Positions 2,290 through 57,659 of a DNA stretch of 64,000 bases are shown one piece after another (positions within the stretch are counted from its first letter, which is position 1; each line of letters starts with the position of its first letter). The position numbers were made by a program, and so were the translations under genes. This DNA comes from an uncultured Gemmiger sp. (GTDB taxonomy: Bacteria > Bacillota > Clostridia > Oscillospirales > Ruminococcaceae), in contig CANRLV010000003.1 in assembly GCA_947631565.1 (NCBI GenBank), positions 1 to 64,000 on the forward strand, read 5' to 3'. The notes below the pieces were generated by a model. The model was not told where the DNA came from, made no database searches, and saw only the letters and a list, made by a program, of their open reading frames with translations.

Positions 2290-2348
2290 GACCCACCGCC
2301 CCACCCGCACAGCGGGTGCAAGCTATCAAAAAAAGTACATTTTTAATA

Positions 2349-2570
2349 ATCGGCCCTGACCGACATGTGCGGTTGCGCCCGCAGGCGCACGTCGTAGGCC
2401 AACCGCGCGAAGCGCGGCTCTTAGGCCGGAGACGCAGGGCCGATACCGCTAGAGCAAAAATGCCGCAGCAAGTCGCCGTAAGGCATGCGCAAGGCATTTT
2501 TGCGACAGGGTGTGTCCAAGAGAGGGGTGCAGGCGGACTGGCGCAGCCGGCAAAGCCGAACCCCTCTTTT
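2349..2570. repeat. Three-hairpin intergenic repeat, copy A
   Basis: First of three related elements (others at 53491 and 57487). Module 1: stem ATCGGCCCTG (2349-2358) / CAGGGCCGAT (2435-2444) enclosing a conserved GACATGTG core plus about 65 extra bases with their own small hairpins (for example CCGCGCGAAGCGCGG at 2403-2417). Module 2: GCAAAAATGCC (2454-2464) / GGCATTTTTGC (2493-2503) enclosing AGTCGCC and GGCATG. Module 3: AGAGGGGT (2521-2528) / ACCCCTCT (2560-2567) enclosing GCAGGCGGACTGGCGCAGCC and GCCGA. It fills the gap between convergent cysE and the dehydrogenase gene. No coding function; probably a structured RNA or a non-autonomous repeat. Confidence 0.85.
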
Positions 2571-2578
2571 GCAGGAAC

Positions 2579-6171: not shown

Positions 6172-6192
6172 GTGGCATTCCGGACCGAATTG

Positions 6193-6201
6193 TGCTATGC
6201 T
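6193..6201 (+). promoter_or_regulatory. Extended -10 promoter of the Sel1-repeat gene
   Basis: TGCTATGCT (6193-6201), an extended -10 element, 31 bases before the ATG. No good -35 hexamer at standard spacing; the region upstream is the htpG terminator. Confidence 0.45.
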
Positions 6202-6231
6202 GGAAGCAGCCGTAGAAAAAGGAGTGGGACC

Positions 6232-8721
6232 ATGGCCGAGCAAACCGAAAACACGCTGCCGCAGGACGCCGGCGAGGAGACCTTTGTCTACATAGACCCG
6301 CAGGCCATCGAACGGCTGGGCCGGCTGGGCCGGGCCGCCGCCGGGCGTGAGGACGCCCACCGCGCGCTGCTGGCCCGCGCCGAGGACGGGGATCTCGACG
6401 CCATGTTGGGCCTTGCGCAGGACTACCAGACCGGCAGCGGCACCGCGCGCGACGAGCACGAGGCCTTTTTGTGGCTGACGCGCGCCGCCGACGGCGGGCA
6501 CCTGGCGGCCCGGCACGAGCTGGCGATGTGCTGGCTGACCGGCACCGGCACCGACAAGGACCCCGCCCGCGGCGCGGCCCTGCTGGCCGAGAACGCCGAG
6601 GAGGGCGTGCTCGCCTCGGTGTGTATGCTGGGCGTCTGCTATGAGTTCGGCGACGGCGTGCCCGAGGACAAGGGGCGCGCCGTGACCCTGTACGCCGAGG
6701 CCGCGCAGCAGGGCTTTGCCCGCGCCCAGTGTAACCTAGGCATATGCTGTTACCACGGCATCGGCACGGCGCGGGACCCGGCGGCCGCCGTGCGCTGGTT
6801 CACGCTGGCGGCGCGGCAGGGCCATCCCCGCGCCCAGGTGCTGCTGGGCGTCTGTTACGAGAACGGCTACGGCGTGGAAAAGGACGCCGCCAAGGCCGTC
6901 GCCTGCTACCGCGCCGCGCGCGAGCGGGGCTACGTCGACGCTTCCTGCGCGCTGGGTGTGTGCTACTATAACGGCATCGGCGTGAATCGGGACCTTGCCA
7001 GGGCCGCCGCCCTGTATGAGGAGGGCGCCCGCCGCGGCGACGCCCGCGCCGCCCTGCTGGCCGGCGAATGCTATGAGCACGGCGACGGCGTGGACGCTGA
7101 CCCCGTGCAGGCGGCGGCGATGTACACGCTGGCGCACGAGCACGGCAGCGCCGCCGGCTCCTGCGCGCTGGGTGTGTGCTATGAGTTCGGCACCGGCGTG
7201 GAGACGGACAAGGCCCGCGCCGCCGAGCTGTATCGCGCGGGGGCCGAACGGGGCAACGCGGCCGCACAGTGCAACCTGGGCTTTTGCTATCTGCAGGGCA
7301 TCGGCGTGGCGCGCGACCCGGCGAAAGCCATCCCGTGGCTCGAGAAAGCCGCCGGGCAGCACTATCCGCGCGCGATGGGCCTGCTGGGGGACTGTTATTC
7401 CTACGGCCGCGGTACGGCGCAGGACCACGCCAGGGCCGCCGAGCTGTACACGGCCGCCCACAACCTGGGCTACCCGAACGCGACCTGCTCGCTGGGGTTG
7501 TGCTACGAGATGGGCCACGGCGTGCCGATGAACAAGCAGCGCGCCGCCGAGCTGTACCGCGCGGCCGCCGAACAGGGGCTGGCGCAGGCGCAGTGCAACC
7601 TTGGGTTTTTCTATTACCTGGGCATCGGCGTAAAGGAAGACAACGCCGAGGCCTTCCGCTGGTTCAGCAAGGCTGCCGCGCAAAACTACCCGCGCGCGCA
7701 GTTTTTTGCCGGCGAATGCTATGAGCTTGGCTATGGCGTAGAAAAGGATGTTGGCAAGGCCTTCCAATACTACACCGCCGCCCACGAGGGCGGCTACCGT
7801 GACGCCGCCTGCGCGCTGGGGCTCTGCTATGAGACGGGCGAGGGCGTGGCGATGGACAAAGCGAAAGCCGTCGAGCTGTACCGCGAGGGCGCCCGTGCCG
7901 GGCACGAGCGCGCCCAGTGCAACCTGGCCTTTTGCTACCTGCAGGGCATCGGCACCGAGCGCGACGCCAAACGGGCGGTGCGCTGGCTGCGGCAGGCCGC
8001 CGAGGGCGGCAGCAGCCGCGCCATGTGCCTGCTGGGCGAATGCTACGAGGACGGCACCGGCGTGGAGCGCGACTACGCGCTGGCGGCCGAGAACTACCGG
8101 GCGGCGGAAAAGGCCGGCAACGCCCGCGGCGCCTGTCTGCTGGGGCTGTGCTATGAAATGGGCCGCGGCGTCGGGAAAGACACCTTAAAGGCCGTAGAGC
8201 TCTACCACAAGGCGGCCGAGCAGGGCCTGGCGATGGCGCAGTGCAACCTGGGTTACTGCTTTTACGCGGGCATCGGCGCGGCGCAGGATTACGGCCAGGC
8301 GGTGCGCTGGTTCCGCAAGGCTGCCGAGCAGGGCCAGCCGCGCGGGCAATTTTTGCTGGGGCAATGCCTTGAAAACGGCAGCGGCTGTGTGGCCGCCCCC
8401 GCCGCCGCGGCCGAATGGTACCGCAAGGCCGCCGAAAAGGGCTACAGCCCCGCCCAGTGCGCGCTGGGCGAGCTGTACGCAGCCGGGCAGGGCGTCGGCA
8501 AGGACCCGGCTGCCGCGGTCGAATGGTACCAAAAAGCCGCCGACCGCGGAGACGGGCGTGCGCTCTGGCTGCTGGCCGGCTGCTATGAGCACGGTGCCGG
8601 CGCCCCGCGCGACAAAAAGAAGGCGCTGGCGCTCTACCGGAAAGCGGCCGACGCCGGCTATGAAAAGGCCGGGAGCGATGTAAAACGGCTGCAAAAGAAG
8701 TCCTGGTTTTTACCGAACTGA
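6232..8721 (+). CDS. Large Sel1/TPR-like repeat protein
   Basis: 829-residue soluble protein with no signal peptide or membrane segment. After about 55 residues it consists of 21 complete Sel1-like repeats of about 36 residues (pattern A-x-C-x-L-G-x-C-Y-x-x-G-x-G-V-x-x-D-x-x-K-A) and one partial repeat, forming an alpha-solenoid for protein-protein contacts. Most repeats carry two cysteines, unusually many. From repeat 8 to 19 the repeats fall into a fixed three-type order (S-C-A-L-G-type, A-Q-C-N-L-G-type, P-R-A-Q-type). The ATG at 6232 follows AAAAAGGAG; the frame above it is htpG terminator sequence. It lies alone between two terminators. Partner and role unknown; an adaptor or scaffold is the usual guess for Sel1 proteins. 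Confidence 0.9.
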   Translation: MAEQTENTLPQDAGEETFVYIDPQAIERLGRLGRAAAGREDAHRALLARAEDGDLDAMLGLAQDYQTGSGTARDEHEAFLWLTRAADGGHLAARHELAMCWLTGTGTDKDPARGAALLAENAEEGVLASVCMLGVCYEFGDGVPEDKGRAVTLYAEAAQQGFARAQCNLGICCYHGIGTARDPAAAVRWFTLAARQGHPRAQVLLGVCYENGYGVEKDAAKAVACYRAARERGYVDASCALGVCYYNGIGVNRDLARAAALYEEGARRGDARAALLAGECYEHGDGVDADPVQAAAMYTLAHEHGSAAGSCALGVCYEFGTGVETDKARAAELYRAGAERGNAAAQCNLGFCYLQGIGVARDPAKAIPWLEKAAGQHYPRAMGLLGDCYSYGRGTAQDHARAAELYTAAHNLGYPNATCSLGLCYEMGHGVPMNKQRAAELYRAAAEQGLAQAQCNLGFFYYLGIGVKEDNAEAFRWFSKAAAQNYPRAQFFAGECYELGYGVEKDVGKAFQYYTAAHEGGYRDAACALGLCYETGEGVAMDKAKAVELYREGARAGHERAQCNLAFCYLQGIGTERDAKRAVRWLRQAAEGGSSRAMCLLGECYEDGTGVERDYALAAENYRAAEKAGNARGACLLGLCYEMGRGVGKDTLKAVELYHKAAEQGLAMAQCNLGYCFYAGIGAAQDYGQAVRWFRKAAEQGQPRGQFLLGQCLENGSGCVAAPAAAAEWYRKAAEKGYSPAQCALGELYAAGQGVGKDPAAAVEWYQKAADRGDGRALWLLAGCYEHGAGAPRDKKKALALYRKAADAGYEKAGSDVKRLQKKSWFLPN

Positions 8722-53482: not shown

Positions 53483-53490
53483 CGGCCTCA

Positions 53491-53653
53491 AAAGAGGGGC
53501 TCGGCGTTACTGGCTGCGCCGGTCCGCCTGCGCCCCTCTCTTGGACACACCCCGTCGCAAAAAATGCCGTTCGCATGCCCAAAGGGCGACTTGAACGGCA
53601 TTTTTTGCTCCAGTGGTATCGGCCCCGGTCGGCACATGTCCGCCGGGGCCGAT
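53491..53653. repeat. Three-hairpin intergenic repeat, copy B (inverted orientation)
   Basis: Read on the minus strand in the orientation of copy A. Module 1: ATCGGCCCCGG / CCGGGGCCGAT (53643-53653 with 53618-53628) around CGGACATGTGCCGA. Module 2: 16-bp stem GCAAAAAATGCCGTTC / GAACGGCATTTTTTGC (53557-53572, 53593-53608) around AGTCGCC and GGCATG. Module 3: AGAGGGGC / GCCCCTCT (53493-53500, 53532-53539) around GCAGGCGGACCGGCGCAGCC and GCCGA. The compact form of the element; fills the gap between convergent udk and the WG-repeat lipoprotein. Confidence 0.88.
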
Positions 53654-53672
53654 GGTTTTAAATTTGTCTGCG

Positions 53673-57441: not shown

Positions 57442-57486
57442 CACGGAACCCTCCTCGAAATGGAATGGTTTGCGAATTTCAAATCC

Positions 57487-57659
57487 ATCCACATCGGCGG
57501 ACATGTGCCGACGATGTGGATACCTCTAGAGCAAAAAATGACGTTGGAGTCGCCTTTGGCATGAGAACGGCATTTTTTGCGATGGAGGGGAATCTAAGGG
57601 GGAGGTGCAGGCGACTTGGCGAAGCTCCGCTGAGCCAACAAAGCCGAATCTCCCCCTTA
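57487..57659. repeat. Three-hairpin intergenic repeat, copy C, inside the glycogen operon
   Basis: Module 1: ATCCACATCG (57487-57496) / CGATGTGGAT (57512-57521) around GCGGACATGTGCCGA; the stem bases differ from copies A and B but still pair. Module 2: GCAAAAAATG-A-CGTT (57531-57545) / AACG-G-CATTTTTTGC (57566-57580) around AGTCGCC and TTGGCATG. Module 3: TAAGGGGGAG (57595-57604) / CTCCCCCTTA (57650-57659) around GTGCAGGCGACTTGGC and GCCGAA. The operon mRNA (minus strand) runs through all three, with module 1 ending about 45 bases before the glgA start. Confidence 0.85.

Follow-up and report, generated by a model that had tools for sequence, protein, structure and literature searches.

Three-hairpin intergenic repeats of Gemmiger as probable cores of a non-autonomous transposable element

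Three intergenic gaps in a 64-kb stretch of DNA from an uncultured Gemmiger sp. (the whole stretch analysed, called here the window) carry the same ordered set of three hairpins, and the question is whether these repeats are an RNA family selected for its structure or something else. A sequence-only reading had taken them for a selected structure of a family that it did not recognise. This is half of the story: the structure is real and has no counterpart in Rfam, and the family is a transposable element, not a free-standing RNA family. The repeats are likely the cores of a Gemmiger MITE, a non-autonomous element which is moved by an IS1182-type transposase, usually duplicates the hairpin at which it inserts and leaves its core behind. 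Four kinds of evidence lead to the transposable element: the ends, the hairpin duplications, the empty sites and the presence of IS1182-type genes ending in CAGACTGTC.

The copies announced at 2349, 53491 and 57487 are all present, with cores at 2348-2571 (+ strand, copy 1), 53489-53654 (− strand, copy 2) and 57486-57659 (+ strand, copy 3). Each is made of three separate stem-loops, which supports a single family of three ordered hairpins, and the stems that had been named are located and pair in all three copies. In copy 1, module 1 (2349-2444, stem ATCGGCCCTG/CAGGGCCGAT) has about 60 extra nt in its loop, themselves foldable and absent from the earlier description; module 2 (2454-2503) is an A5/T5 stem around AAGTCGCC...GGCATGC, and module 3 (2518-2570, AGAGGGGT/ACCCCTCT) ends 8 nt from the stop of a convergent dehydrogenase gene. 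Copy 2 is read on the − strand: module 3 (53490-53542) lies about 7 nt from the TGA of a uridine kinase family gene, followed on the map by module 2 (53557-53608, A6/T6 stem) and module 1 (53618-53653, ATCGGCCCCGG/CCGGGGCCGAT). Copy 3, upstream of glgA, has module 1 at 57487-57521 (ATCCACATCG/CGATGTGGAT), module 2 at 57531-57580 and module 3, with an inner arm 10 nt longer, at 57595-57659, i.e., 28 nt from the stop of a nucleotidyltransferase gene (GlgC/GlgD-like). The fold-energy z-scores against dinucleotide shuffles are −5.1, −9.9 and −8.6 for copies 1, 2 and 3, respectively, and no shuffle is as low in energy as the real copies. Elsewhere in the window (6172-8721), a gene contains 108-nt (36-residue) tandem repeats of Sel1-like period.

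The family comprises about 60 copies in the window's own genome (G000; 2.47 Mb, 140 contigs, 89% complete). A search at the DNA level gives 40 strongly scoring places, and the covariance-model search that had been called for, with a model built from 21 copies, gives 61 matches at E<=1e-7. The model also matches 28 of 61 relatives, all 28 in one genus, and gives no match in 393 other genomes from the order, with few candidates scored per genome. Within GTDB r220 (a set from which the window's own genome may be missing), just two genomes contain the linker GATACCTCTAGAGCAAAAA, both being rabbit-gut MAGs of uncultured Gemmiger sp. No copy was found in phage and plasmid collections, and papers on repeats in Faecalibacterium or Gemmiger relatives yielded no description of the family. 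Rfam returns no match above the gathering score; at relaxed E-values the matches are chance ones only. Further species have a diverged class B, which shares the three-module plan and the module-1 core (CGGCGGACATGTGCCGACG). Three own-genome copies (L014, L021, L029) have a different module-1 5' half (TATGTGCGCGAAAAACTATCCACTTGTGCGG) and look like a different repeat fused at the conserved loop. In G028, the module-1 loop of L110 (contig C2, near 41200) is split by unrelated sequence, such as the insertion of another element would leave, and a PreQ1-III riboswitch (L061, 2921-3029) is matched by Rfam near one copy.

None of the three copies of the window is a complete element. Comparison of the flanks across the genus shows that complete copies start with CAGACTGTC(A/G)AAAAA and finish with a fourth hairpin, CAGCGTGTCGA-loop-TCGACACGCTG. 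The layout is thus: left end, AT-rich spacer, modules 1 to 3 and terminal hairpin, for a length of about 221 bp, or 282 bp with the module-1 insert. The lengths of complete-ended copies cluster at 221, 282 and 230-232 bp. As in MITEs, the element is short (221-396 bp) with a hairpin interior and no transposase gene, and it is bounded by terminal inverted repeats, CAGACTGTCGAAAAA on the left and, read inward, CAGCGTGTCGA / CAGCGTGTCAAAAAA on the right. In one genome, the end motif is counted 77 times, against 0 in the reversed control. Moreover, other short elements (about 150-190 bp) with unrelated interiors have the same ends and the same hairpin duplications.

A terminator-like hairpin flanks the element on both sides, identical within a site and differing between sites. 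Both ends and their flanks are present for 52 copies: in 31 of these, a direct duplication lies at or near the two ends, compared with 0.6% for shuffled flank pairs; the other 21 have no clear duplication. In 27 of 30 cases, the duplicated sequence, 17-41 bp long, forms a hairpin with its feet at most 3 nt from the edges, against 7% of random windows. The duplicated hairpins at the element ends correspond to the targeting of palindromic sequences known for some members of the IS1182 family. According to the T/A tracts of these hairpins, the element has no preferred orientation with respect to the terminator (9 vs. 13). In G017 and G028, terminators with elements on either side or with serial elements are seen (L265, L268, L285), so that some terminators have been hit repeatedly.

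In the window, the copies are old and their ends are lost, as is the target duplication in all three. Copy 1 keeps a terminator-type hairpin, CACCCGC-ACA-GCGGGTG (2302-2318, +), 12 nt past a TAA stop. It immediately precedes a decayed left end, CAAGCTATCAAAAAAA (2319-2334, +), which has 12/15 identity to CAGACTGTCAAAAAA, and this order is that of complete copies; the right end is gone. Copies 2 and 3 are cores only.

The insertion is polymorphic between species. Copy 3 is absent in the 28 other Gemmiger genomes with a readable glgA site (the contig of G017 stops inside glgA). At the site of L044, a complete copy, 27 relatives are empty and have ordinary terminators there; beside its terminator, the closest of them, G028, carries a different short element, which ends in TTTTTGATACACTGA, a right end of the same kind as that of the family. 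As a separate observation, most relatives (L205-L232) have before glgA a conserved possible structure, AAAGGGCGGG...CTCCCCCGCCCTCTCA...CCGGGGAGA, which the window's genome does not have; copy 3 now occupies the region concerned.

The covariation of the stems, noticed first on three copies, is kept in the larger alignment. Over 80 distinct copies, 98.1% of 3881 stem cells are paired and 26 of 49 pairs have changed on both sides; none of 500 shuffles reaches any observed value, and slid structures are only 41-53% paired. This alignment had been fitted to the model, and a MAFFT alignment of 21 copies agrees with it. The earlier opposition between selected structure and mere recent copying is too simple: the stems do undergo compensatory change, and both occur. 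Covariation alone is not a proof of selection, since template-switch correction can also produce it among copies of a palindrome. It could therefore be asked whether the same mobile element has a core without function in the host, its arms being kept identical by such correction. Transposable elements often retain their hairpins as DNA palindromes, and most double changes observed here are Watson-Crick on both strands, as this explanation would have it. It is nevertheless rather unlikely, in view of three observations: (i) core-only copies retain all three modules beside stop codons when the ends have vanished; (ii) G-U cells exceed A-C cells; (iii) differences are compensated at sites shared between species. 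The G-U excess (50 vs. 15 cells, G-U-dominated pairs and the weak outer helix being left out) suggests strand-specific selection on the + strand, the contrast by position being just 18 vs. 12 and the cells non-independent. Pairs kept at shared sites are better evidence for selection than covariation. At a first site, the cores of two species differ by 5 double-sided pair changes, with 2 pairs broken. At a second one, one species has 2 double changes, 5 single changes with pairing kept and 0 broken pairs, and another has 2 double, 3 single kept and 4 broken. At a third one, the core is nearly unchanged between species. Cores at shared sites thus mostly keep their pairing, which fits retention of the structure.

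A second explanation is a dispersed non-coding RNA, i.e., a discrete small RNA or riboregulator that is under selection for its structure and spread through occasional duplication. It would account for the strong covariation, for the G-U excess with its indication of the + strand and for the module-1 core common to classes A and B. It accounts poorly for terminal inverted repeats, hairpin duplications and a species-specific presence, and for dozens of copies per genome. Moreover, most copies are antisense to both neighbour genes, no promoter-like site was found in the three copies of the window, and Rfam has no match for them, which makes this explanation improbable. Still a little less probable is a core that moves independently by means of another enzyme, the 221-bp element being a composite: sharp-edged core-only copies do exist in several species, and at one site the core stands by a hairpin without CAGACTGTC ends in 3 of 30 species, but intermediates with one end or a decayed end are found (8 of 38 copies in G000, and copy 1 of the window), and neither ends nor a duplication proper to the core are visible.

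The preferred reading, that of a transposable element whose core is retained, has next to account for the state of the copies. Of 38 copies in G000, 20 are core-only; in G017, complete copies are 25 of 31. Core-only copies adjoin stop codons, at about 7-28 nt in the window and sometimes directly after TAA/TGA in other species. Only 2 of 34 placed copies lie between divergent genes, one more having its neighbour resolved on one side only. T4-T6 runs accompany the stems in the cores of the window; a simple terminator scan calls almost none of them, the long interrupted stems being outside what it allows. The three-hairpin core is probably kept as a putative terminator or transcript 3' end; both the adjacency to stop codons and the pairing mostly kept at shared sites fit this role.

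The candidate for the transposase is found in the same genome. G000 encodes DDE transposases that belong to the IS1182 family (PF13751, NF033551); the putative partner matches NF033551 with E=3.3e-67 over half of the profile, and is under the full-length cut-off because it is truncated. Two IS1182 copies have the end CAGACTGTCGAGAAAC immediately after a hairpin, e.g., GGGCCCCCAAACTTTCGTTTGGGGGCCCTT; a third contig has the left end CAGACTGTCAAATAAG and a fourth one the right end TTTTTTGACAAACTG, each at a hairpin. All the copies with the CAGACTGTC end are cut by contig ends, so none displays both ends and its own duplication, and no IS1182 transposase was found in the 86% complete draft of G017, which has the most complete copies; the partnership is thus put forward as putative. 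Judged from these shared ends, it is most likely that an IS1182-type transposase mobilises the repeats. The complete IS1182 element of G008 was rejected as a partner, as it is without the CAGACTGTC end, and an IS1182-type copy on contig C72 of G000 has no such end either. It must be added that two hairpins of G000, L143 (1353-1382, contig C45) at the left end of an IS1182 copy and L145 (475-504, contig C95) at the right end of a second one, have the same arms and a reversed loop (ATTC vs. GAAT). If they belong to one copy, the duplicate is loop-inverted; if not, two copies sit at one terminator.

Insertion beside terminator hairpins is also a property of group IIC introns, which are retroelements with a ribozyme and make no target duplication; the Gemmiger element differs from them by its terminal inverted repeats, its duplication and its putative DDE partner. 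The closest likeness in target is to IS1272/TnSha1 of staphylococci (PMC5678879, PMC4923244). IS1272, an IS1182-family element, inserts at a stem-loop whatever its sequence, in many cases a terminator, and the target is replaced or trimmed. The stem-loop target, often a terminator, without target consensus, and the IS1182-family transposase, a putative one for Gemmiger, are common to both. On the contrary, the target hairpin of IS1272/TnSha1 is replaced or partly deleted and not duplicated, whereas in Gemmiger it is duplicated whole (31 of 52), and the Gemmiger element is short, without a transposase gene. In pathway b of Wan et al., the ends would be joined at the 5' feet of the stem-loop, which would lead to duplication of the whole (PMC5678879, PMC4923244). 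The Gemmiger elements show the outcome of this pathway, and the route is probably this whole-stem-loop duplication, proposed but unobserved for IS1272. According to a 2025 paper, IS1182 transposases act both with and without duplication, and what they recognise may be a structure (PMC12056078). As in prokaryotic MITEs (PMC10969869; e.g., QMITE2 of Coxiella), the element is below 500 bp, with terminal inverted repeats, stable stem-loops, duplications in younger copies and truncated end-less copies resembling palindromic repeats. It differs from them by duplications that are hairpin-sized, of variable length and at terminators, and by its three-module core with compensatory change. BOX, RUP and SPRITE of pneumococcus are likewise intergenic and modular with strong stem-loops, and SPRITE has terminator-like features; by their description in a review, they differ in ends, partner transposase and hairpin duplication (PMC3049150). 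Within the MITE/IS1182 kind, the hairpin duplication and a covarying core that outlives its ends are notable.

The following mechanism would link these observations. Insertion sequences located elsewhere, which have the same ends, would supply a DDE transposase of the IS1182 family, and this enzyme would recognise the ends of the element. It would join them to a hairpin, in the typical case an intrinsic terminator, at its two 5' feet, and repair would copy the whole hairpin (17-41 bp). As the hairpin is duplicated whole, the gene would retain a terminator on either side of the insert. The ends and the duplicate would decay later and the three-hairpin core would stay, often beside a stop codon, its present use as a terminator or transcript 3' end being the probable reason.

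A more tentative proposal goes further: the elements could be parasites that dwell in terminators, their DDE transposase duplicating whole terminator hairpins and the structured core of its passengers being selected in the host as a stand-in for the terminator at which it lands. If so, insertion would be nearly harmless and the cores would turn into permanent transcript ends. Wan et al. proposed several outcomes for transposition at stem-loops and had evidence for one alone; the Gemmiger genomes offer many natural cases of another outcome, the duplication of the whole hairpin, in elements short enough to study. That a strongly covarying repeat can be a transposon matters for the discovery of RNAs based on covariation. 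Finally, these elements suggest a route by which mobile DNA may supply terminators to gut bacteria.
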